Shown here: positions 21,268 through 34,569 of the stretch, one piece after another | Numbering within the stretch: the stretch's first letter is position 1 | Layout: the number at the start of each line of letters is the position of its first letter | From: Alphaproteobacteria bacterium | Lineage (GTDB): Bacteria > Pseudomonadota > Alphaproteobacteria > Puniceispirillales > UBA1172 | DNA: 64,000 nucleotides | NCBI GenBank assembly: GCA_016778985.1 | Contig: JADHOM010000010.1 | Location: forward strand, 1 to 64,000 | Direction of reading: 5' to 3' | Translations under genes and position numbers: made by a program | Notes under the pieces: generated by a model | Databases searched by the model: none | What the model was told of the DNA's origin: nothing | The model's input: only the letters and a program-made list of their open reading frames with translations

Positions 21268-21632
21268 AGGTCAGATGGTCGGATGGTCGCTGTTTCGGCA
21301 GAGGAAAGTCCGGGCTCTAGAAAACTACGGTGCCGGATAACGTCCGGCGAGGGTGACCTTAGGGAAAGTGCCACAGAAAACAAACCGCCATTTTTATAAT
21401 GGTAAGGATGAAACGGTGCGGTAAGAGCGCACCGCGATCTCGGTAACGAGATTGGCAGGGTAAACCCCACCGAGAGCAAGACCAGATAGGAACATACTGC
21501 CATATGGCAAAGGGTAGTTTTCCCCTATGTTCGGGTAGGTCGCTTGAGGCGTGAAGGTAACTTGCGTCCCAGATGAATGGCCATCCCGCCGCATTGCGGC
21601 GGACAGAACCCGGCTTATAGACCATCTGACCT
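21268..21632 (+). ncRNA. rnpB: RNase P RNA, class A
   Basis: The catalytic RNA of RNase P, which removes 5' leaders from tRNA precursors, is recognised by its conserved blocks: CAGAGGAAAGTCCGGGCTC near the 5' end, the GGTAAACCCCACC region that binds the tRNA CCA tail, and ACAGAACCCGGCTTA near the 3' end. The 5' end (AGGTCAGATGGTC) and 3' end (GACCATCTGACCT) are perfectly complementary over 13 bases and form P1. The length, about 365 bases, is usual. It lies between uup and the dcw cluster. Frames reading through it are not genes. Confidence 0.97.
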
Positions 21633-21710
21633 GTTTCCTTATGCTGATATTAGAGCTACTTAATCCGCCCTCTAAGCATCCCTACCAATATTCATATTGG
21701 CATCCATGTG

Positions 21711-21746
21711 TGTAACCATGTCTGTAACCATGCCTGTAACCATGTC
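21711..21746. repeat. 12-base tandem repeat
   Basis: Three copies of TGTAACCATGTC with a 12-base period (starts 21711, 21723 and 21735; the second has one change). Confidence 0.9.
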
Positions 21747-21764
21747 TATATCTATATTGCCAAG

Positions 21765-21803
21765 CCTTTTCATGCAGCCTTTTCATGCAGGCTTTTCATG
21801 CAA
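21765..21803. repeat. 13-base tandem repeat
   Basis: Three copies of CCTTTTCATGCAG with a 13-base period (starts 21765, 21778 and 21791). The third copy has changes at its first and last base. Confidence 0.9.
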
Positions 21804-21958
21804 GATGACGATTCTCATGGTTAAGATATTGAAATTATTTAAGAACATAAAGTGAACAAATAGATTTACTGTTTTTTTTCAATGCTTTAGCATAAATTCT
21901 TAAGATATCAATCTAACTATATGAATTAATTACATTTTTTGAGTTAGTTATAGGTTTT

Positions 21959-22004
21959 CCCATTGACAGTCCATAAAATCCCATGTTATCCCATAATATC
22001 CCAT
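21959..22004 (-). promoter_or_regulatory. Candidate MraZ operator of the dcw cluster
   Basis: On the minus strand TGGGA is repeated three times with a 10-base period, followed by a degenerate fourth unit (TGGAC) and a fifth TGGG one base out of phase. On the plus strand these read CCCAT at 22000, 21990 and 21980, TCCAT at 21970 and CCCAT at 21959. In E. coli MraZ is known to bind direct TGGGN repeats separated by five bases in its own promoter. The repeats end 45 bases before the mraZ start, so autoregulation of the cluster is likely. Confidence 0.7.
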
Positions 22005-22048
22005 ATAGTATTTTTCATATATGGACGGGAAACGACTAACAAGAGGCA

Positions 22049-22522
22049 ATGGTGGAACTGTTCACATCAACATTTGAGAACAAGGTGGACCGCAAAGGCC
22101 GCGTATCTGTGCCTGCCAAATACCGTGCCATTCTGGAATCGCGTGGTGAGCCGATTATCTTGACCAGATCGCTCACCCTGCCCTGCCTTGAAGGCATGTC
22201 GGTAGATCGGATCAATCAATATGCTGATGCCATTGACAGCATGGATGTGTTTTCCGAAGAAGCCGAAATGCTGCAAATGATTATCGCTAGCGCGCAGGAA
22301 ATGCGCCCCGATAGCGAAGGCCGAATTGTCCTCCCCGAAGATTTTCTTGCCCATGCTAATATTAGCGATGCAGCAACATTTATCGGTATCGGTCGATCAT
22401 TCCAGTTATGGCAACCGGCGGCCTTCAAAGCTCGTGAGACCAAAAGCCGCCAAGCCGCCCGCAATGGCCAGACGCCAAAATTAATCCTCAAACCACGGCC
22501 AACATCAGGAGGCGGATCATGA
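22049..22522 (+). CDS. mraZ: Transcriptional regulator MraZ
   Basis: This 157-residue protein is the usual first gene of the dcw cluster. It has two AbrB-like DNA-binding repeats, each centred on a D-x-x-G-R motif: NKVDRKGRVSVPAKY near residue 12 and RPDSEGRIVLPEDF near residue 90. MraZ forms ring-shaped oligomers and represses its own promoter. The C-terminus (KPRPTSGGGS) is a flexible tail. The ATG follows AAGAGG. Its last codons overlap the rsmH start as ATGA. Confidence 0.96.
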   Translation: MVELFTSTFENKVDRKGRVSVPAKYRAILESRGEPIILTRSLTLPCLEGMSVDRINQYADAIDSMDVFSEEAEMLQMIIASAQEMRPDSEGRIVLPEDFLAHANISDAATFIGIGRSFQLWQPAAFKARETKSRQAARNGQTPKLILKPRPTSGGGS

Positions 22523-23475
22523 GCTCTCACCCGGAGCATAATCCCGTTCTGGTCGTTGAAGTCGTTGAAGCTCTGTCACCCAAACCAAATGCGGTTTACC
22601 TAGACGCCACCTTTGGCCGCGGCGGCTATAGCCGTGCCATTCTTGATGCTGCCGCCTGTCAAGTAATTGCCATTGACCGCGACCCTGACGCCATTGCGGC
22701 AGGCCAGTCGATGTGCCAAGAATATGAGAACCGGCTGAAATTATGTGAAGGCCGATTTTCCGATATGCGTAATTTGTTAGAGTCGGCGGCAACACCTCAT
22801 GTTGATGGTGTTGTCTTTGATTTTGGTGTCTCGTCACCACAATTAGATGATGCCGACCGCGGATTTTCTTTCCGCTTTGACGGCCCGCTTGACATGCGCA
22901 TGGAACGGTCAGGCCGTGATGCTAGTGACTTTATCAATTCGGCGGGCGAGACAGATATTGCCAATATTCTATGGCAATGTGGTGAAGAACGTGCCTCACG
23001 CCGCATTGCTCGCGCCATTGTTAAAGCTAGAGGTGAGTCACCGATCACGACAACATCGCAGCTAGCACGGATTATTCGTGCCGTTATGCCGCGTCCAAAG
23101 CCCGGTCAGATTGATCCTGCAACACGCAGTTTTCAGGCTATCCGTATTCACATAAATGATGAGCTAGGGGAAATTCGAGCCGCCCTTCCAGCGGCGTTAG
23201 CATGTCTTAAACCTGGCGGCAAATTGGCTGTTGTATCCTTCCATTCGTTAGAAGATCGGCTGGTCAAAACATTTATCATGAATGAAGCCGGCAAAGCGCC
23301 GCGTCCATCAAGGCATTTGCCTGATTTACCCGAAGATGCGCCACGGCTAGATATCATTACCCGCAAACCTATCACGCCTTCTGCTGATGAGATAAGCCAA
23401 AACCCGCGCGCTAGATCAGCGCGGTTGCGGGTGGCAAGGCGAACCAATGCCCCTTTATTAAATGAGGTGGCGTGA
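22519..23475 (+). CDS. rsmH: 16S rRNA (cytosine-1402 N4) methyltransferase
   Basis: This 318-residue RsmH (MraW) uses S-adenosylmethionine to methylate N4 of C1402 in the ribosomal P site. HNPVLVVEVVEAL opens the protein. The SAM site is YLDATFGRGGYSRAIL, and DGVVFDFGVSSPQLDDADRGFSF and the long R-x-A-R-A-I-V block follow. The C-terminal part has GGKLAVVSFHSLEDRLVK and ends in a basic tail (RARSARLRVARR). It overlaps mraZ by four bases and ftsL by four bases. Confidence 0.97.
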   Translation: MSSHPEHNPVLVVEVVEALSPKPNAVYLDATFGRGGYSRAILDAAACQVIAIDRDPDAIAAGQSMCQEYENRLKLCEGRFSDMRNLLESAATPHVDGVVFDFGVSSPQLDDADRGFSFRFDGPLDMRMERSGRDASDFINSAGETDIANILWQCGEERASRRIARAIVKARGESPITTTSQLARIIRAVMPRPKPGQIDPATRSFQAIRIHINDELGEIRAALPAALACLKPGGKLAVVSFHSLEDRLVKTFIMNEAGKAPRPSRHLPDLPEDAPRLDIITRKPITPSADEISQNPRARSARLRVARRTNAPLLNEVA

Positions 23476-23816
23476 TGATCGTTTTCTCATTAAGAGCGAC
23501 CATAATCTTAACCCTTATAACAATCATGTTAGGGCCGTTAGTTTATCTGTCGGGCATCCGTAAAGATTCGCGTGAAACAGAGCTGATGCGAATAGAGGCG
23601 AGCATCGCCGAAACTCGCGATAGCATCATCGTGCTGAAAGCGGAATGGGCATATTTATCGCGCCCTGATCGTATCCTGCAATTATCGGAACGGTTTCTCG
23701 AAGTGGAGCCATTAGACCCGCATCAAATTATTCCTATTGATGAGCTGAACAAAATTACCAAGCCTCAAACCAACAACAATATTGAAGAAGCCAATCTGAT
23801 CTGGAGAATAGAATGA
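23472..23816 (+). CDS. ftsL: Cell division protein FtsL
   Basis: This 114-residue bitopic protein has one membrane segment near the N-terminus (LRATIILTLITIMLGPLVYL). A periplasmic coiled-coil region (ETELMRIEASIAETRDSIIVLKAEWAYLSRPDRI) contains the LKAEWAYLSRPDR block typical of alphaproteobacterial FtsL. It would link FtsB/FtsQ to the FtsWI synthase in the divisome. The GTG at 23472 overlaps the rsmH stop; the next codon but one is ATG (23475), which may be the real start. It overlaps ftsI by four bases. Confidence 0.88.
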   Translation: MMIVFSLRATIILTLITIMLGPLVYLSGIRKDSRETELMRIEASIAETRDSIIVLKAEWAYLSRPDRILQLSERFLEVEPLDPHQIIPIDELNKITKPQTNNNIEEANLIWRIE

Positions 23817-25513
23817 AAATCTGGTCACGTCTTATTCGTTTAATCTCAGATATGCCGGCCGCCGAAGCCCGCCGTGTGGCGGCATCGCGGTTAGGTGTCG
23901 TACGGATCGTTGCGCTATGCTGTTTCTGCGCTATTGGTTTGCGCGTTGGCTGGCTTGCGATTGATTTCAGCAGTGAGGCAAAAGCCTTTACCCCAACAAT
24001 CGAACAGAGCGTCCGCGGTGATATCCTTGATCGCAATGGACAGGTCATGGCAACTACTGTTCCTGTCTTTGAACTTTATGCAGACCCACAAGAGATTCTA
24101 GACCCTCGTGAAGCGGCGGCAAAACTTGCCACTGTTCTAACCGATATGAACGAGGAGACAATCTATAAGCGTATCACCCGCGACACCCGATATGCCGAAT
24201 TAGCATGGCGGCTATCGCCAAAAAAATATGCTGATGTGTTGCGGCTAGGTGTTGCCGGTATACATGGTCGGCGTAAATTGACACGCGCCTACCCTAACGC
24301 TATGGCGGCGGCACATGTGCTTGGCGGCGTCAACAAAGATGGTCAGGGCATTGCTGGCATTGAACATCATCAGAATACATTGCTTGCATCAGGCACCGAC
24401 CTAACGCTTTCAATCGATCTCAATATTCAGGCTATTCTGCGTGAAGAAATTAGCAGTCAGATTGATTTATTTGAAGCTATTGGCGGCGCTGGCATTATTC
24501 AGGATATCGAAACTGGTGAAATTATTGCTATGGTCTCACTGCCTGATTATGACGCTAATCACATGGGATATATTGCCGATGATCACCGCTTTAATCGGGC
24601 CACCAAAGGGCTGTATGAGCTCGGTTCAACATTCAAGGTTATGAACACCGCTATGGCTCTGGAAAGCGGCGTTTTTGCAGAAACCGATATGATTGACGTT
24701 GTCTCAACTCTGCGCGTTGGCCACCATATCATTAATGATTATCATCCCGAAAAAACCAACCTCAATGTCGCCGAAGTGCTGATTGTTTCATCAAATAAAG
24801 GGTCTGCCCGTATTGCTGATAAAATAGGCGCAGATATTCAGAAACATTATCTTAAAGAGCTGGGGTTTTTTGAAAAAACCGCTCTTCAATTACCTGAATT
24901 AGGTGCGCCTTTAATTCCCTCGCGCTGGGGGCGTGCAGAAATTATGACGATTTCATATGGCCATGGTATTTCCGTCACCCCTGTTCACTTAACCAGCGCG
25001 ATTGCTACTACGGCAGGCTCAGGCATGTTAATAACGCCCACTCTTATCAAGCAATCACAGCCTGCTGAGATCAATGTTCAGGTATTTTCACCTCAAACAA
25101 CGGCAAAAATCCGCGCCATGATGCGGCGTGTCGTAAGCCACCCTCGCGGCACCGCCAATAAAGCCGATGTCAATGGTTATTTAGTTGCGGGCAAAACTGG
25201 TACATCTGAAAAAATTTCCGGTAACGGCTATGACAAGAAAGCCAATATCACCAGTTTTGTCAGCGTTTTTCCTGCCAATGATCCGAAATATGTCGTTTTC
25301 ACCATGATTGATGAGCCGAAAGGCCAAAAGCATAGCTTCAATTTTGCCACTGCAGGCTGGGTGGCGGCACCAGTTGCCGGGCGTATCATTCAACGTGTTG
25401 CACCTATGCTTGGGGTTCATCCTATTGACGAAAATATGCCGGAAATTCGCCAGAGTTTGATGCTTAATTTGCCTGAACTTGAAAAAGAGGGGGCAAAACA
25501 TGCATCTTTCTGA
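23813..25513 (+). CDS. ftsI: Penicillin-binding protein 3 (septal transpeptidase)
   Basis: This 566-residue class B penicillin-binding protein cross-links septal peptidoglycan. A short cytoplasmic N-terminus is followed by a membrane segment at about residues 31-50. The non-catalytic pedestal domain includes RGDILDRNGQVMATT. The transpeptidase domain carries the catalytic Ser272 in STFK, the SSN motif at 325-327 and KTGT at 460-463. All three motifs are intact. It works with FtsW, encoded later in the cluster. Its last 14 bases overlap the murE start. Confidence 0.97.
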   Translation: MKIWSRLIRLISDMPAAEARRVAASRLGVVRIVALCCFCAIGLRVGWLAIDFSSEAKAFTPTIEQSVRGDILDRNGQVMATTVPVFELYADPQEILDPREAAAKLATVLTDMNEETIYKRITRDTRYAELAWRLSPKKYADVLRLGVAGIHGRRKLTRAYPNAMAAAHVLGGVNKDGQGIAGIEHHQNTLLASGTDLTLSIDLNIQAILREEISSQIDLFEAIGGAGIIQDIETGEIIAMVSLPDYDANHMGYIADDHRFNRATKGLYELGSTFKVMNTAMALESGVFAETDMIDVVSTLRVGHHIINDYHPEKTNLNVAEVLIVSSNKGSARIADKIGADIQKHYLKELGFFEKTALQLPELGAPLIPSRWGRAEIMTISYGHGISVTPVHLTSAIATTAGSGMLITPTLIKQSQPAEINVQVFSPQTTAKIRAMMRRVVSHPRGTANKADVNGYLVAGKTGTSEKISGNGYDKKANITSFVSVFPANDPKYVVFTMIDEPKGQKHSFNFATAGWVAAPVAGRIIQRVAPMLGVHPIDENMPEIRQSLMLNLPELEKEGAKHASF

Positions 25514-26954
25514 TCTGCTAACATCTGATCATCAAAATACTGATAATCCGATTGTCACCGGCGTCAGCTCTGACTCACGGCAGATTAGTGATGGGTTTGT
25601 TTTTGTCGCCATTAAAGGCATATCCATTGATGGCAACCAATTTATTGACGATGCGATTAGCAAGGGCGCGGCGGCTATCATTACAGATCAAGACGTGTCC
25701 AATGCTCAAGTTCCTGTTATCAAAGTTGACGATAGCCGTCTGGCACTTGCGCAAATTGCCAGCCGTGTTCATTCAAATAAACCAAACTTATTAGCGACAG
25801 TAACCGGCACAAATGGCAAAACATCTGTCGCTGAGTTCGTTCGCCAAATCTGGCAACGCATGGGCTGGCAAGCTGGCAGTATAGGTACGTTAGGTGTCCG
25901 TTCAGGACATATGGAAATGCCCATGCCATTGACCACCCCTGATGCGCTCACGCTGCATCAGTCTCTGGGTCAGTTATGTGAAAATAATATCTCCCATGTT
26001 ATTCTGGAAGCATCTAGTCATGGCATAGAACAGCATCGGCTGAGCCAACTGCCAATAGCGGTTGCTGGATTTACAAACCTGACACGCGATCATCTGGATC
26101 ATCATAAAACGATTGAGGCTTATTTTGCTGCAAAATTGCGGCTCTTTACCGATTTACTGGTAGATGGCGGTACTGCCGTTATTAATACCGATAATGATTA
26201 TGGGAAAACCATTGTTAAAGCTATATCTGACCGCCAGATACGCATTATTACCGTCGGCTATAATGCCGATGCTGATTTCCAGATTATTGAAAATGAAAAT
26301 CTGCCTTGGGGGCAATTGGTAACCGTCAAACATGATGGCCGTAACTATAAAGTGCCGCTGGCTTTGCTGGGATCATTTCAAGGCGAGAATGCTGTTCTTG
26401 CCGCCGCTATGGCGCATGCGTCAGGTCTGTCGGCTACCCATGCGCTCTTATCCCTGCCCTATCTGATGCCTGCCAATGGCCGCATGCATAGCATTTTCTT
26501 ATCACATAATACCGGCCGCGTTGTTGTTGATTATGCGCATACGCCTGACGCGCTAGATACGGTGCTGAAAACGCTCCGGCAGGTCGTTCAGGGTAAACTT
26601 TATGTTGTGTTTGGCTGTGGCGGTAATAGAGATAAAGGCAAGCGCGTGGAGATGGGTAAGAGCGCAGCAACATGGGCTGATCATGTTATTGTGACAGACG
26701 ATAATCCACGCAACGAAGACCCTGCAGCTATCAGAGCGGACATTATGGTGGGCTGTCCCGATGCTGAAAATATGGCTGATCGGGCAAAAGCCATTAGCTA
26801 CGCTATCAATCAATTAAATGACGGCGACATCCTACTCATTGCTGGAAAAGGGCATGAAAATCAACAGCTTATCGGCAATGAGACATTGCCGTTTAGCGAT
26901 GAAGGGACGGTTCGCGCCATTCTTCGGACGCACGCCGTAGGAGAGATGGCATGA
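25500..26954 (+). CDS. murE: UDP-MurNAc-tripeptide synthetase (meso-DAP adding)
   Basis: This 484-residue Mur ligase adds meso-diaminopimelate to UDP-MurNAc-Ala-Glu. The ATP loop TGTNGKTS is at residues 102-109. The carbamylated-lysine region and the ligase core (EASSHGIEQHRL, TNLTRDHLDHH) follow. DNPR at 401-404 is the motif that selects DAP over lysine, so the wall is of the A1gamma type. The ATG at 25500 is chosen because AAGAGGGGG lies just before it; the longer frame begins with a TTG. It overlaps ftsI by 14 bases and murF by four. Confidence 0.96.
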   Translation: MHLSDLLTSDHQNTDNPIVTGVSSDSRQISDGFVFVAIKGISIDGNQFIDDAISKGAAAIITDQDVSNAQVPVIKVDDSRLALAQIASRVHSNKPNLLATVTGTNGKTSVAEFVRQIWQRMGWQAGSIGTLGVRSGHMEMPMPLTTPDALTLHQSLGQLCENNISHVILEASSHGIEQHRLSQLPIAVAGFTNLTRDHLDHHKTIEAYFAAKLRLFTDLLVDGGTAVINTDNDYGKTIVKAISDRQIRIITVGYNADADFQIIENENLPWGQLVTVKHDGRNYKVPLALLGSFQGENAVLAAAMAHASGLSATHALLSLPYLMPANGRMHSIFLSHNTGRVVVDYAHTPDALDTVLKTLRQVVQGKLYVVFGCGGNRDKGKRVEMGKSAATWADHVIVTDDNPRNEDPAAIRADIMVGCPDAENMADRAKAISYAINQLNDGDILLIAGKGHENQQLIGNETLPFSDEGTVRAILRTHAVGEMA

Positions 26955-28417
26955 TCTGGTCAGCGACAAATATAATTGCCGCTGTCAATGGCTGTGCCGC
27001 AGGCGGAGCCAATTGGTCAGTCAACGGTATCAGCATTGATAGCCGCAATACTAATGCTGGCGATCTTTTCATTGCTATTAAAGGCGAGCGCCAGGATGGC
27101 CATGATCATATCGGCCAAGCCATTGACAACGGTGCCGTAGCGGTATTGGTATCCCGCTCTATTGAGGCCGATATTCCATCGATCATGGTTGATGATACTT
27201 TTGCCGCGTTAAATCAGCTGGCACTTGCGTCACGCCAGCGTCATCAGGGCAAGCGTATTGCAATTACCGGTAGTGTTGGCAAAACTGGAACCCGAATGTT
27301 GGTCGCCAAAGCACTTGCGGCTTATGGCAAAACTCATTTTTCCGAAGGTAATTTGAATAATCATATTGGCGCACCTTTAAGTCTGGCAAGAATGCCACAA
27401 GATGCGGCTTTTGCTGTTTTTGAATGTGGCATGAATCACGCTGGTGAATTATCACCGCTCAGCCAATATATCGCGCCTGATTTTGCCGTTATCACAACAA
27501 TATCGGACAGCCATATAGCGCATTTCAGCAGCCTTAATGATATCGCCATGGCGAAGGCGGAAATCTTTGATGGGCTGACAGCTGGTACTAGCGCAGGCAT
27601 AGCTTTAATCAACTCCAGTGATCACTTCACCCCATCACTAGCAGATAAAGCCTATCAAGCTGGGGCTAAGCAGGTACTTTCTTTTGGCCTGTCTGATCTG
27701 GCAGAGTTTCAAATAATCAGCGTTCAGCGCCATGCCGAAGGGCTTAATATCACTGCTGATATCCGTGGCCAGATGATCACATTTTCGCTGGGCATGATGG
27801 CAAGCCATTGGGCGCAAGCAGGCGTCATCGCATTAGGAATTGTCGATGCGCTTGGCTTGCCGCTTGAGCCTGCAATAACCGCTTTGGCGTCAACACGCGA
27901 TCTGCCCGGACGCGGCGAACGCAGCAACCTGATTTGGCGGCAACATGACAACTCTATTGGCTTAACCCTAATAGATGATAGCTATAATGCCAGCCCGCTA
28001 TCCATGATATCTGCGCTTGAAAGCCTTGCTGAATACGGTGATGAAAATGCTACCCCAGATGCTAGCCTAGACGCTAATAAAGGCCGCCGTGTCGCAATTC
28101 TGGGTGACATGCTGGAATTAGGCGATAGCGCGGTTGAACGGCATCAGGCATTAGCTCCACTTATTGAGGCATCCGGCATATCCATATTGATCACCGTAGG
28201 TGCGCTGATGGAACATCTAAATGCGGCCATAGCAAGTCCTAATATAACGGCGATCCATGTGCATGATGCCGATGCGGCGATTGCCTTGCTGCCATCACTT
28301 CTTGAACATAATGACGTTATCCTCGTCAAAGGATCAAACGGCATTCGCCTGTCCAAATTAATACATGCGTTGAAATCGTCATGTTCTGAAACTAATGGAG
28401 ATAGCCATGCTGCCTGA
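26951..28417 (+). CDS. murF: UDP-MurNAc-pentapeptide synthetase
   Basis: This 488-residue ligase attaches D-Ala-D-Ala to the UDP-MurNAc tripeptide in the cytoplasm. The ATP loop is GSVGKTGTR at 107-115. The middle domain has [15 protein letters not shown] and [15 protein letters not shown], and the C-terminal domain has [13 protein letters not shown] and [11 protein letters not shown]. These match MurF. It starts in the ATGA overlap with murE. A small insertion ([13 protein letters not shown], about 368-380) lies just before the final domain. Confidence 0.96.
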
Positions 28418-29495
28418 TCTGCTGGTTCCCCTTGCTGATGAGTTTCAGCTATTCAATATTTTCCGCTATATCACATTCCGAACTGGTGGCGCGGTTATGA
28501 CCGCCCTGATTATTTCATTTTTGTTTGGCAATCAGATGATCCGTTGGCTGAAATCGGTTCAAGGCGAAGGCCAGCCTATTCGTGATGATGGGCCTGAAAG
28601 CCATATAATCAGCAAGAAAGGCACTCCGACAATGGGCGGATTGCTCATCCTTGTCGCCTTTGGCATCTCATCTTTGCTATGGATTCCAATGGCTAGCGTT
28701 TATTTATGGCCTGTTTTATTTGTGGCAATTGGATATGGAGTTATTGGATTTTCGGATGATTACCTGAAAATTAAACGCCGTGATACCAAAGGCATTCCGG
28801 GGCGGGTAAAATTAATTGGACAAGTCGGGATTGCGTTTATCGCCACCCTCTATCTGGTTGAAGTCACACCTGATAATTTGCGCTATACGCTGGCCATTCC
28901 ATCATTCAAAGATGTGTTGCTGCCGCTAGGCATGCTCTATGTGCCATTTGCTATTTTTGTCATGGTTGCAGCATCTAATGCGGTTAATCTGACAGATGGC
29001 TTAGATGGTCTGGCGATTGGACCAGTCATTATCTGCGCGCTGTCATTTGCTTTAATTGCCTATTTGGTCGGCAATGCTGTGTATTCAGATTATCTGCAGC
29101 TGCATTATGTTCCCGGAACAGGTGAGCTAACGGTGATGTGTGGCGCGTTAATCGGCGCAGGTCTTGGCTTCTTATGGTATAATGCACCGCCTGCTAGCGT
29201 CTTTATGGGCGACACTGGCTCACTGTCTTTGGGCGGCTGTCTGGGGGCTATGTCGGTCGCGACCAGGCATGAACTTGTGCTGGCTATCATTGGCGGGCTG
29301 TTTGTTCTCGAAACCGTTTCTGTGATTGTTCAGGTCATCTCATTCAAGCTGACTGGAAAACGTGTTTTTGCCATGGCGCCTCTGCATCATCATTTTGAGA
29401 AAAAGGGTTGGGCAGAGCCAACTATCGTTATCCGCTTCTGGATTATTTCCGTCATTCTCGCGCTGATCGGCCTAGCGACACTGAAACTGAGATAG
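28407..29495 (+). CDS. mraY: Phospho-MurNAc-pentapeptide transferase (lipid I synthase)
   Basis: This polytopic enzyme of 362 residues and about ten membrane segments moves phospho-MurNAc-pentapeptide to undecaprenyl phosphate. Diagnostic blocks are [13 protein letters not shown], the D-D-x-x-K site in [43 protein letters not shown] with the catalytic Asp, and the loop [14 protein letters not shown]. The ATG at 28407 is preferred because GGAG lies six bases upstream; an ATG at 28395 would leave no such site. It overlaps murF by 11 bases. Confidence 0.96.
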
Positions 29496-29498
29496 AGC

Positions 29499-30845
29499 AT
29501 GATTATTCCGCACCATATGTCAGGCAAAACCGTTGCAATTCTTGGACTAGGACGTTCAGGCATGAGCGCGTGTTCAGCGTTGCTGGCAGCTGGTGCGATA
29601 TGCTTTATTCATGATGATCAGATGATCCCTGATAAGATACCATCAGCCGCTAGCGCGGCGCCGCCTGAGCAATGGCCATGGCAAGACCTTGATGCCCTGG
29701 TGATAAGCCCCGGCATACCTAGCCTTTATCCAACACCGCATCCAGCGGCAGCAAAAGCACGTGCCAATGATATTCCGATTATTAGCGATATTGAGCTGTT
29801 CATGCAGTCCAATATTGCGGCAAGGGTTATTGGCATTACCGGCACAAATGGCAAATCGACTACAACGGCGCTGATCACGCATATCATTAATCAATGCGGG
29901 ATGTCGGCATGTGCAGGCGGCAATATTGGCATGCCGGTCATGGCTTTGGATGACCCGGGCGCAGATGGCGTCATTGTGCTGGAGCTATCATCATATCAGC
30001 TTGAGATCACACCGTCGCTCCGGCTTGATGCCGCCGCTATTCTCAATATCACACCTGATCATTTGGATAGGCATGGCGGCTGGGCGGGATATAAAGCCGC
30101 TAAAGCATCTATCGCGCATGCCGTCACTACCCCTAAAACACTGATTATAGGCGATGATGATAGCTGTGGTGAGATTGCGGAAGCATTTCCTCAATTTGCG
30201 GTGAAGATTGATCCCGCTATAGTGGCGGCACGGCTGTCAAATATGGATTTACCGCCATCATTATATGGCCGTCATAATCTGATGAATATCGCCACAGCAA
30301 TGTTAATCTGTGATGCGCTTAGCCTCGACGTCTCCACATGGGATGCGGTGCTGACCAGCTTTCACGGTTTAGCGCATCGGATGGAATGGCTCGGCGAATG
30401 TGATGGCGTGCAGTTCATTAATGACAGCAAGGCTACTAATGGTATGGCGGCGGCTAAGGCCTTAGCCAGCTACCCGATGATTTACTGGATTGTTGGCGGA
30501 CAAATGAAAGATGATAGTCTGGGTGAAGCCATGCAAGTCCTAGATCATGTGCGTTATGCTTTTACTATTGGTGAGCAGGCTGAGGCTTGCGCGACTATGC
30601 TAACGCCACATGTGTCTGTTGAAACGTGTCACAGTATTGAAAAAGCCACTCGCTCTGCCTTTGCTATCGCCCAAAAGGATCAGTTGGCTAAATCGGCAGG
30701 CGCAGATAGCGCAACAATCTTGCTATCTCCTGCTGCTGCTAGTTTTGATCAGTTTAATAACTTTGAGCATAGAGGCAATGTCTTCCGACAGGTCGTAAAT
30801 AGTATTCTCGGTGAAACAAAGTCAGTGGAGCTAGCGCATGTTTGA
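29499..30845 (+). CDS. murD: UDP-MurNAc-Ala:D-Glu ligase
   Basis: This 448-residue ligase adds D-Glu. It has an N-terminal Rossmann domain (VAILGLGRSGMSA), the ATP loop GITGTNGKSTT at 112-122 and LELSSYQLEI. The middle domain shows NITPDHLDRHGG, and the C-terminal domain FINDSKATNGMAAAKAL and IVGGQMKDDS. The start lies three bases after the mraY stop. The final codons overlap the ftsW start by eight bases. Confidence 0.96.
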   Translation: MIIPHHMSGKTVAILGLGRSGMSACSALLAAGAICFIHDDQMIPDKIPSAASAAPPEQWPWQDLDALVISPGIPSLYPTPHPAAAKARANDIPIISDIELFMQSNIAARVIGITGTNGKSTTTALITHIINQCGMSACAGGNIGMPVMALDDPGADGVIVLELSSYQLEITPSLRLDAAAILNITPDHLDRHGGWAGYKAAKASIAHAVTTPKTLIIGDDDSCGEIAEAFPQFAVKIDPAIVAARLSNMDLPPSLYGRHNLMNIATAMLICDALSLDVSTWDAVLTSFHGLAHRMEWLGECDGVQFINDSKATNGMAAAKALASYPMIYWIVGGQMKDDSLGEAMQVLDHVRYAFTIGEQAEACATMLTPHVSVETCHSIEKATRSAFAIAQKDQLAKSAGADSATILLSPAAASFDQFNNFEHRGNVFRQVVNSILGETKSVELAHV

Positions 30846-32052
30846 TCGCACCGACCGCAGCTTTGTTAGTATCTGGTGGTGGACGATCGACCGGACGGTG
30901 TTAACGCTCACCTTGTTGTTATCAATTGCTGGATTGTTCATGGTTATGGCGGCCAGCCCAACGGTGGCGATAAAAATTGGCTATAATGAATGGCATTTTG
31001 TCATCCGTCATGCCGTCTTCATGATATTCTGTCTTATCCTCATGCTAGGCACCGCCATGCTAAATGAGGGCATGGTCAGAGTAGTCGGCATCTTAGGCTT
31101 GCTGATAGCCATAGCCATGATCGGCTTAACCTTGGTCATTGGCGCGGAAACCAAAGGGGCAACCCGTTGGATTTCGCTAGGGGCATTTAAGATACAGCCG
31201 TCTGAGTTTGCTAAACCCTGCTTTGCCATTACCTGTGCATGGCTCCTAAGTATGTGGCGCGAGGAACGGCATTTTCCGGGCTGGATATTTTCTATCGGAT
31301 TACTGGGTTTAATCGTCTTATTGCTTGTCTTACAGCCCGATATTGGCATGACCATTCTCTTTGTCATGACATGGGCGTTACTGATATTTCTGGCTGGCAT
31401 GCCTATTGGTCAAGTCATTGGGCTTGCCGGCCTTGCCCCGATTGCCGGATATCTAGCCTATGTGCTGATGCCGCATGTCACCATCCGCGTCAATAAGTTT
31501 CTCAATGGAACTAATGATCAGGCGGATATTGCTATGGAAAGCTTCTCGCATGGTGGATTATTAGGGGTTGGCGCATCCGAGGGCGTGATTAAAAAGCATC
31601 TGCCTGATGCTCATGCTGATTTTATTTTTGCCGTCACTGCTGAGGAATATGGCATCTTGTTCTGCATTGCTTTGATCATCTGCTATATCTTTATTGTTCA
31701 ACGCGGCTTTGCCCATGCCCAAACATCCCACAGTCTGTTTAGAACCTTAGCGATTGCCGGGCTAACCCTACAATTTGGCTTGCAGGCGGCCATTCATATG
31801 GCGTCATCGGTTCAGCTGATCCCTACCAAAGGCATGACATTGCCATTTATCAGTTATGGCGGCTCTTCCCTGATGACGTCTGGACTGACCATAGGCTTGC
31901 TCATTGCGTTGACCCGACATCGCCAACATAGCATGGCTTCGGCTAAACCTGATGCTGCTAAAGCCTATGCCCCTGATATCAATAATAGCAGTAATCCCAA
32001 TACTGCAAGTGATCCCAATGCTAGTCGTGATAAAGGAGAGGTCTATGGCTAA
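30838..32052 (+). CDS. ftsW: Septal peptidoglycan glycosyltransferase FtsW
   Basis: This 404-residue SEDS family protein has about ten membrane segments and polymerises lipid II with FtsI. Key blocks are KGATRWISLGAFKIQPSEFAKP, LLVLQPDIGMTILF with the essential Asp, and QAAIHMASSVQLIPTKGMTLPFISYGGSS. The N-terminus is cytoplasmic. The C-terminal tail is long, polar and Asn/Ser/Asp-rich (DINNSSNPNTASDPNASRD), apparently from short repeat expansion. Its last bases overlap the murG start by eight. Confidence 0.96.
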   Translation: MFDRTDRSFVSIWWWTIDRTVLTLTLLLSIAGLFMVMAASPTVAIKIGYNEWHFVIRHAVFMIFCLILMLGTAMLNEGMVRVVGILGLLIAIAMIGLTLVIGAETKGATRWISLGAFKIQPSEFAKPCFAITCAWLLSMWREERHFPGWIFSIGLLGLIVLLLVLQPDIGMTILFVMTWALLIFLAGMPIGQVIGLAGLAPIAGYLAYVLMPHVTIRVNKFLNGTNDQADIAMESFSHGGLLGVGASEGVIKKHLPDAHADFIFAVTAEEYGILFCIALIICYIFIVQRGFAHAQTSHSLFRTLAIAGLTLQFGLQAAIHMASSVQLIPTKGMTLPFISYGGSSLMTSGLTIGLLIALTRHRQHSMASAKPDAAKAYAPDINNSSNPNTASDPNASRDKGEVYG

Positions 32053-33148
32053 ACCTGTCATCATGCTAGCGGCTGGCGGTACAGGTGGGCATATCTTCCC
32101 TGCCTTAGCGGTTGGCGAATATCTCATTAATCATGGGTGGTCACCTGTATTTGTCACCGATAAACGTGGCCGCCATATGATTCCAAAGGAATATAAAACG
32201 ATTACAATCTCTGCCGCCTCACCTTTTGCCCTACGTCTGCATATGCGGTTATGGCGGTTATTTCATCTGGGAATGGGCTTATTATCATCAGCATGCACAA
32301 TTCTCTGGCGCCGACCTAAAGCTGTGATAGGCTTTGGCGGCTATCCTGCGGTACCGCCTGTTATTGCCGCGCATGGACTTGGTCTGCCGGTGATGCTGCA
32401 TGAACAAAACGCATCTATGGGGCGAGCAAATCGCTTTCTTGCTAAGCGAGTCCGACTATTGGCCACATCATGGCCAGATACGAAAGGCATCAATCAAGAT
32501 AACAAAACCCCTGTTATCATCACTGGAACACCTGTGCGCGCGGCCTTTCATCAGATTGGTGAAAATGGCTATACTCCTCCGCAAGATGATGCACCTGTGC
32601 GTATCCTCATTGCTGGCGGCAGCCTTGGCGCAAAAGTGTTTGGTGAGACTGTGCCTGAGGCTCTTAGCCGCCTACCCGACGATATCAAAGCCCGGCTCAA
32701 ACTGGTGCATCAGGTCAGGTCAGAACAAATTGAAGACGTCAAGGCCCGATATGAAGCAAGCGGCATTGATGCCAATATCACAACATTTATTCATGATATG
32801 GGTGCAGAGATTAAACAAGCGCATTTGGTAATTTGCCGCGCTGGAGCATCTTCAGTGGCAGAATTGGCAGCGGCTGGCCGGCCGGCGCTTCTCGTGCCAT
32901 TTCCCCATGCAATGGATGATCACCAAACCGCAAATGCAAAACTCGTCCATGACATTGGTGGCAGTTGGCTGACCCCTGAGGCAGAAATGAGCGCCGGATC
33001 ACTAGCTGGTAAGATTGCTGCTCTCATCGCTGATCCAGCACGGCTAACGGTTGCCGCCACTAATATTATGCAACTTGCAAAACCCGATGCGGCAAAAGAC
33101 TTAGCAGACCATATCATCAGCCTAACCAAAAAAGGGAAAGCATCATGA
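32045..33148 (+). CDS. murG: Lipid II synthase (UDP-GlcNAc transferase) MurG
   Basis: This 367-residue GT-B enzyme adds GlcNAc to lipid I on the inner face of the membrane. LAAGGTGGHIFPALAV lies at the N-terminus, the second Gly-rich loop is GFGGYPAVPPV, and LLHEQN appears as MLHEQNASMGRANR. The C-terminal donor site has ILIAGGSLGAKVFGE, ICRAGASSVAELAAAGRPALLVPFPHAMDDHQTANA. The ATG at 32045 is fixed by AGGAGAGG just upstream; a frame from 31952 would run deep into ftsW. It overlaps murC by four bases. Confidence 0.96.
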   Translation: MAKPVIMLAAGGTGGHIFPALAVGEYLINHGWSPVFVTDKRGRHMIPKEYKTITISAASPFALRLHMRLWRLFHLGMGLLSSACTILWRRPKAVIGFGGYPAVPPVIAAHGLGLPVMLHEQNASMGRANRFLAKRVRLLATSWPDTKGINQDNKTPVIITGTPVRAAFHQIGENGYTPPQDDAPVRILIAGGSLGAKVFGETVPEALSRLPDDIKARLKLVHQVRSEQIEDVKARYEASGIDANITTFIHDMGAEIKQAHLVICRAGASSVAELAAAGRPALLVPFPHAMDDHQTANAKLVHDIGGSWLTPEAEMSAGSLAGKIAALIADPARLTVAATNIMQLAKPDAAKDLADHIISLTKKGKAS

Positions 33149-34569
33149 GCCAGCTCCCCCTTAGCATTGGGCGCATTCATTTTACTGGTATCGGCGGCAT
33201 CGGCATGAGCGGCATAGCCGAGATACTGCATGATATGGGATATCAGGTTAGCGGCAGTGATATGTCTAGCAATGCCAATGTAAAACGGCTGATCAGCAAA
33301 GGCATTCCTATCACCATTGGTCAGCATGAAGATAATGTAACAGGGGCAGCAATTATTGTCGTATCAACAGCGATCAAGCCTGACAACCCAGAAATGATTG
33401 CCGCGAGAAAGCATTTTCTGCCTGTTGTGCATCGCGCCGAAATGCTGGGTGAACTGATGCGGCTGAAATGGTCTGTGGCCATTGCTGGAACACACGGCAA
33501 AACTACCACAACATCATTGGTCGCCTCATTACTGGATATGGGCGGCATTGATCCAACCGTCATCAATGGCGGCATCATCACCGGCTGGGGAAGCAACGCC
33601 AAGCTCGGCAATAGCGAATGGATGGTTGTCGAGGCTGATGAAAGTGATGGCTCATTTTCAAGACTCAATCCGACGGTTGCAGTTGTCACCAATATTGATC
33701 CCGAACATTTAGATCATCATGGCAGTTTTGATAATCTCAAACAGGCGTTTAGAGATTTCATTGCCTCAATCCCATTTTATGGATTTGCCAGCCTTTGTAT
33801 TGATCACCCTACCGTCCAGCGCATGATTGCCGATATTCCTGAACGGCGGATTATCTCATATGGATTTTCAGCCAGCGCTGATGTTCGCGGCGTTAATCTG
33901 CGTTCTGAAAATGGCACGATGATCTTTGATACCATTATCAGCAAACGTCTCAGTAATGATGGCATTATTGAGGGCTTCAGATTACCCATGCTAGGTGACC
34001 ATAATGTTCTCAACACACTTGCCGCCATAAGTGTTTGTCTGGAAATGGGGATTGATACCGATAAGGTGATTAATGCGGTTAGCCAATTCAAAGGCGTTGG
34101 GCGGCGCTTTGATCATAAAGGCTGTGTCTCTGACATAACAATTATTGATGATTATGGCCACCATCCTGTTGAGATTACGGCGGCGCTCTCAGCGGCCCGG
34201 ATGCTCAAGCCGAACAATCAAATTATCGCTGTGTTTCAGCCGCATCGCTATACCCGCATGCGTGATTTATTTGATGATTTTTGCGCCTGTTTCAATGACG
34301 CTGATCATGTCATCATTAGCGATATTTACGCCGCTGGTGAGGACCCCATAGACGGCTATGAACGTGATGATTTTGTGAATAGTCTGCGTGCCCACGGCCA
34401 TCCATCGGTTGAGGCGCTTTACCATCCTGATGAGCTGGCCAAAGACGTCATGACAAAGGCTAGGCCAGGTGATGTGATCATGTGTCTAGGGGCTGGCACG
34501 ATTACCAACTGGGCGGCGGCTTTACCCAATCAGATTGCTGCGATTACTGGTGATGAGGTGCAATCATGA
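33145..34569 (+). CDS. murC: UDP-MurNAc:L-Ala ligase
   Basis: This 474-residue enzyme adds the first alanine of the stem peptide. The N-terminal loop is HFTGIGGIGMSGIAE, the ATP loop GTHGKTTTT lies at 115-123, and VVEADESDGSF and TNIDPEHLDHHGSFDNL follow. The C-terminal domain has DDYGHHPVEI and AVFQPHRYTRMRDLFDDF, which are MurC hallmarks. It starts in an ATGA overlap with murG and ends in one with murB. Confidence 0.97.
   Translation: MSQLPLSIGRIHFTGIGGIGMSGIAEILHDMGYQVSGSDMSSNANVKRLISKGIPITIGQHEDNVTGAAIIVVSTAIKPDNPEMIAARKHFLPVVHRAEMLGELMRLKWSVAIAGTHGKTTTTSLVASLLDMGGIDPTVINGGIITGWGSNAKLGNSEWMVVEADESDGSFSRLNPTVAVVTNIDPEHLDHHGSFDNLKQAFRDFIASIPFYGFASLCIDHPTVQRMIADIPERRIISYGFSASADVRGVNLRSENGTMIFDTIISKRLSNDGIIEGFRLPMLGDHNVLNTLAAISVCLEMGIDTDKVINAVSQFKGVGRRFDHKGCVSDITIIDDYGHHPVEITAALSAARMLKPNNQIIAVFQPHRYTRMRDLFDDFCACFNDADHVIISDIYAAGEDPIDGYERDDFVNSLRAHGHPSVEALYHPDELAKDVMTKARPGDVIMCLGAGTITNWAAALPNQIAAITGDEVQS

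Follow-up and report, generated by a model that had tools for sequence, protein, structure and literature searches.

In other bacteria, MraZ is reported to form rings and to regulate the operon to which its own gene belongs. In E. coli, where MraZ is reported to repress the dcw operon, the Pmra operator carries three TGGG units with a 10-base period shortly before mraZ; the TGGG units stand on the mraZ strand and are reported to lie after the -10 element (PMC7761207). In the sequence of strain K-12 the units read TGGGA-n5-TGGGG-n5-TGGGA on the mraZ strand. A site with the same period was reported for Burkholderia cenocepacia, in which four 7-base repeats are separated by 3-base spacers and a fragment carrying the site is bound by MraZ in EMSA, but these repeats are of the GTG type and are located downstream of the -10 element, over the start site (PMC7761207). 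The MraZ box reported for Mollicutes, AAAGTG[T/G], also consists of direct repeats with a 10-base period before mraZ, but its core is GTG, and the mycoplasma MraZ is described as an activator (PMC7761207). Direct repeats over the -10 element and the start site are likewise reported for the HsdC site of Mollicutes, which differs in that it belongs to another protein, has a repeat spacing off by one base, and controls restriction-modification genes.

The repeat array before mraZ and its neighbourhood

The array described here lies at 21959 to 22004 of the window, i.e., the whole stretch of 64,000 nucleotides that was analysed, and the sequence between rnpB and mraZ in which it is found runs TTTTCCCATTGACAGTCCATAAAATCCCATGTTATCCCATAATATCCCATATAG. 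The features of this region are as follows.

21271 to 21633, plus strand: rnpB (RNase P RNA; RF00010, E 2.3e-104), the upstream neighbour, outside the operator
21959 to 21963, minus strand: MraZ-type unit 1, CCCAT on the plus and ATGGG on the minus strand, one base off the 10-base register
21963 to 21968, plus strand: putative -35 element, TTGACA, overlapping unit 1 by a T
21970 to 21974, minus strand: unit 2, weaker, TCCAT on the plus strand
21980 to 21984, minus strand: unit 3, CCCAT on the plus strand
21984 to 21992, plus strand: putative extended -10 element, TGTTATCCC, with TATCCC at 21987 to 21992, 18 bases after the -35 element
21990 to 21994, minus strand: unit 4, CCCAT on the plus strand
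22000 to 22004, minus strand: unit 5, CCCAT on the plus strand
22049 to 22522, plus strand: mraZ, with ATG at 22049 (PF02381, E 4e-20, 72 bits against a cut-off of 23)
22519 to 34569, plus strand: rest of the dcw cluster (rsmH, ftsL, ftsI-type, murE, murF, mraY, murD, ftsW-type, the murG region, murC)

The window thus has, just upstream of mraZ, at least three direct repeats of the TGG(G) type with a 10-base period, as in described MraZ operators. It departs from the E. coli layout in that the TGGG strand is opposite to mraZ, as the first-pass annotation had stated, and in that the array does not follow the -10 element but has the putative -35 and -10 elements inside it. The exact 10-base period claimed in the same annotation holds for units 2 to 5 only (21970 to 22004; the TRF program gave 21971 to 22005 with period 10), since unit 1, a perfect CCCAT, stands 11 bases before unit 2 and is one base out of register; this 11-base step recurs in relatives of the same family. 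Its grading of the units as three good plus two weaker has to be replaced by four perfect CCCAT units and one TCCAT.

The mraZ product scored above the Pfam gathering threshold, and the motif D.KGR is kept in both of its halves. The NCBIfam models for MraZ also matched the product, every one below its curated cut-off, with NF001477 as the best at 141.9 of 162 bits and TIGR00242 at 64.5 of 98.35 bits. The curated cut-off of TIGR00242 was reached in none of 386 genomes sampled from the class, although 327 of them matched at E 0.001, and the low score is therefore a property of the class and not of the MraZ in the window; TIGR00242 alone would miss MraZ in Alphaproteobacteria. The gene heads a dcw cluster, as rsmH, ftsL, murE, murF, mraY, murD, murC and others come after it. 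These calls were based on a scan of nine proteins besides mraZ, with the murG region outside the scan, in which the ftsI-type protein exceeded no cut-off and ftsW stayed below its own. Because the genes after the array form the dcw cluster headed by mraZ, the autoregulation of the whole cluster proposed in the first-pass annotation would be its natural prediction.

On the upstream side, rnpB adjoins mraZ on the same strand (21271 to 22049), which was also observed in 9 of the 13 alphaproteobacterial mraZ loci searched, and RNase P RNA is tabulated next to mraZ in Pelagibacter (PMC2704228). Two short tandem arrays are present between rnpB and the operator, one with 3.7 copies of the 12-base CCATGTCTGTAA at 21704 to 21747 and one with 3.1 copies of the 13-base AGCCTTTTCATGC at 21763 to 21802; neither was reported by TRF in the relatives L020 and L025.

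Conservation, link to mraZ and polarity

The exact three-unit pattern was found once in the 2.1-Mb genome, and this single match is the array in the window. Among 41 relatives it gave 22 matches in 19 genomes, all 22 of them upstream of mraZ and in the sense of mraZ when their positions were compared with those of the relatives' mraZ genes by eye, and the pattern written backward gave no match in the same 41 relatives. When the threshold was set so that no more than 2% of 200 dinucleotide shuffles attained the reversed-array score, a reversed array was found in 35 of 36 upstream regions of relatives, the window's included, and a forward array at the 2% shuffle level in none of the 36. The 36 regions came from 37 mraZ-bearing relatives, with G029 left out, and the single one without a reversed array (L031) had just 115 bases before the end of its contig.

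A similar link to mraZ was observed in the class sample. The exact triple was present in 136 of 386 genomes. For 80 triples a mraZ position was available in the same genome; 77 of these were within 500 bases (30 to 355) upstream of the mraZ match and in its sense, and 3 were elsewhere. Genomes with a detected mraZ carried exact triples in 134 of 327 cases in comparison to 2 of 59 for genomes without (Fisher p 6e-10); G153, one of these two, does encode MraZ beside its array. In G247 the triple forms a perfect tandem repeat of 10 bases and falls in none of the ORFs of at least 80 residues found there. As is expected of operator repeats, the pattern is thus peculiar to the region upstream of mraZ, without exception in this genome and among its relatives and nearly so in the class. 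The first-pass annotation had named absence of the repeats before mraZ of relatives as the observation that would count against an MraZ operator; the repeats proved to be kept through the order and in most of the class sample, which supports the match. An origin of the array by chance is ruled out by its uniqueness in the genome, its conservation in the relatives and the class census.

To count the polarities, both senses of the 400 bases preceding each mraZ were searched for [AG]TGG in at least three of four ten-base slots, a level that shuffled sequences reach in either polarity in about 0.1% of cases. By this measure the array was reversed in 110 and forward in 2 of 140 alphaproteobacterial loci, forward in 36 and reversed in none of 50 loci of other Pseudomonadota, and forward in 22 and reversed in none of 50 further loci, taken from a scan extending to other phyla. 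The last set, grouped by title, comprised 25 loci of Deltaproteobacteria/Desulfobacterota, 12 of Patescibacteria, 6 of Bacillota, 2 of Verrucomicrobiota and 5 with no phylum. The alphaproteobacterial loci are a selection of the MraZ matches with the best scores plus 20 further ones, and the exceptions to reversal gather among divergent MraZ; loci within groups are related, so that the counts are not independent. With the four-letter score at the 2% shuffle level, 10 of the 140 alphaproteobacterial loci had a forward array and 12 had no reversed one, a reversed array was found in 4 of the 50 loci of other Pseudomonadota, and the scan reaching other phyla gave 2 reversed and 19 forward arrays in 50 loci. 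Reversed polarity is the usual form in the sampled Alphaproteobacteria, which rules out that it is a peculiarity of the genome studied here, and forward polarity is widespread and probably ancestral.

The same division was obtained without a motif. When the strongest self-similarity at lag 10 was used, the repeat was of the CCA type in 63 of 64 strong cases among 138 alphaproteobacterial loci, and of the TGG type in 15 of 16 strong cases among 50 loci of other Pseudomonadota. The repeat profile of the other Pseudomonadota correlated with the reverse complement of the alphaproteobacterial profile at one phase (0.68, all other phases at most 0.32), and with the alphaproteobacterial profile as read it showed no correlation at any phase. 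The base before TGG is G in other Pseudomonadota and A in Alphaproteobacteria, from which it appears that the specificity of MraZ for the operator unit may have shifted between them; the units of Patescibacteria are forward ATGG(G). In Deltaproteobacteria/Desulfobacterota (L225 to L257) many arrays were observed to be graded along their length, with GTGG-n6-GTGG followed by GGG-type units, e.g., AGTGGTGCAAAGTGGGAAAAAAGGGGAAAAAGGGG.

Forward arrays were also found within Alphaproteobacteria. In the genus of G050, two species have four forward units each (L264 and L268, near 1317) and two others keep reversed arrays of the CCC type (L265 and L270), and G050 itself has three forward units (L192; L203, near 604). 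PF02381 matched 13 of the 41 genomes of this genus, G050 not among them, and 6 of the 13 first loci were anchored. By eye, a possible promoter (TTGAAC, TGTTAC) follows the forward array of L264 and L268 and is not inside it. In the genus of G574, a looser motif used with no shuffle control gave three forward units in 7 of 13 species and three reversed units, further upstream, in 3 of 13. Array polarity can thus apparently change back, and the forward arrays in some species of these two genera suggest that polarity is not essential and that MraZ does not need one direction of the array.

A putative promoter within the array

The putative -35 and extended -10 elements in the window have counterparts in most alphaproteobacterial arrays. 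TTGA[CTG] was found in or near the array in 99 of 118 cases, CCATGnTA in 95, and both together in 87. All 87 arrays with both motifs had at least one pair with a distance of 23 or 24 from TTGA to TA, and this was the distance in 87 of all 101 pairs (62 at 23 and 25 at 24). It would place 17 or 18 bases between the -35 element and an extended -10 element of the form TGnTATCCC, and the periodicity of the array alone would equally permit spacings of about 13 or 33. Since a TTGA-type -35 element and TGnTA thus occur inside the array at 17 to 18 bases, the alphaproteobacterial array would cover the putative core promoter. In the window, the putative -10 element would place the transcription start near 21999. 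A generic sigma-70 promoter scan gave no site in 21600 to 22100, the reason being that TATCCC is poor by consensus, without the final T of a typical -10 element. In other Pseudomonadota, 33 of 38 arrays are preceded by a motif of the TTGAC, TTGCC or TTGAT type, which starts 28 to 43 bases ahead of the first unit.

A weak outside check comes from Rhodobacter sphaeroides, for which a dcw leader of 268 nt is reported (PMC5089854). Five arrays of family f24, which we infer to be Rhodobacteraceae, the family of R. sphaeroides, would give leaders of about 245 to 303 nt by hand, with the start codon taken from other f24 loci. A search of six leader loci against Rfam gave no RNA assignment, so that the f24 leaders were not identified as UpsM.

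Probable operator function, rival readings and implications

The repeats are very likely the docking site of MraZ, the cluster's own control protein. In the reading that we consider likely, 21959 to 22004 is the operator through which MraZ controls the dcw operon, it is interleaved with the promoter, and MraZ represses by occluding RNA polymerase. The MraZ ring would read the minus-strand ATGGG(A) direct repeats, about one per helical turn, and MraZ on the units would cover the -35 (TTGACA at 21963) and -10 (TGTTATCCC at 21984) elements needed by RNA polymerase. As one unit per turn lies over both putative promoter elements, mutual exclusion of MraZ and RNA polymerase would be the simplest working, with negative autoregulation of mraZ and the dcw genes predicted to be co-transcribed with it. 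Evidence that weighs against this reading comes from the negative result of the generic promoter scan, from the 12 alphaproteobacterial loci that have no reversed array and the 10 that have a forward one at the 2% shuffle level, and from the different base before TGG in other Pseudomonadota.

The main rival to repression is that the array is indeed the MraZ operator but that MraZ activates, or does both by circumstance. Activation has the mycoplasma protein as its reported precedent (PMC7761207), and in L264 and L268, from the genus of G050, the forward array stands, by eye, before a possible promoter and not over it; we nevertheless consider it quite unlikely for the window, where the units sit on the -35 and -10 elements themselves, the usual place of a repressor, and E. 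coli MraZ is reported to repress, while a mraZ mutant of M. genitalium is listed with a raised ftsZ transcript. It is very improbable that the array serves NtrX, CtrA or some other protein acting on the dcw promoter in place of MraZ. In R. sphaeroides NtrX is reported to bind the DNA before mraZ, and for S. meliloti CtrA motifs are reported in the corresponding position, but the motif proposed for NtrX, GCAn9TGC, is unlike the CCCAT repeats, and the array goes with the presence of mraZ and, when flipped, agrees with the MraZ boxes known from other groups. A site for either of these two regulators was therefore rejected. There is next to no chance that the array is a functionless short tandem repeat, arisen by chance or drifting: the two other tandem arrays in the same spacer, not reported in two relatives, would suit such an origin, but it is contradicted by the conserved triples of the relatives, the polarity census, and the uniqueness of the array and its link to mraZ.

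How the reversed form arose is a separate question. We hold it to be an even call that a forward operator was inverted early in Alphaproteobacteria and moved into the core promoter, where its polarity became locked for most of the class, that it was turned back in a few lineages, outside this arrangement, and that MraZ can work either way. The lock would come from the -35 and -10 elements being written through the units (CCCA-TTGAC and TGnTAT-CCCAT). It is unlikely, on the other hand, that MraZ binds an alphaproteobacterial array which is a different motif of new origin and not the old operator turned round. A new motif would fit the different base before TGG (A in Alphaproteobacteria, G in other Pseudomonadota), and no place was seen where the turn happened; but the profiles correlate through the reverse complement at a single phase, the Patescibacteria have forward ATGG(G) units, and both polarities occur inside one alphaproteobacterial genus.

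The operator in the window is in the form usual for the class, and what stands out is that this form is inverted in most of the class and interwoven with the putative promoter. To judge by its listings, the literature searched, with the primary MraZ-box papers outside it, has no description of an alphaproteobacterial MraZ site or of MraZ-operator polarity, and we do not claim that the reversal is unpublished. With these results, one odd site becomes a design rule for the division-cluster switch that applies to most of a class. The signature CCCATTGAC ... CCAT ... CCCATGnTATCCCAT may help to locate dcw promoters in Alphaproteobacteria that have not been cultured, and the occurrence of both polarities can serve as a natural experiment to learn if repression or activation by MraZ depends on its direction on DNA.
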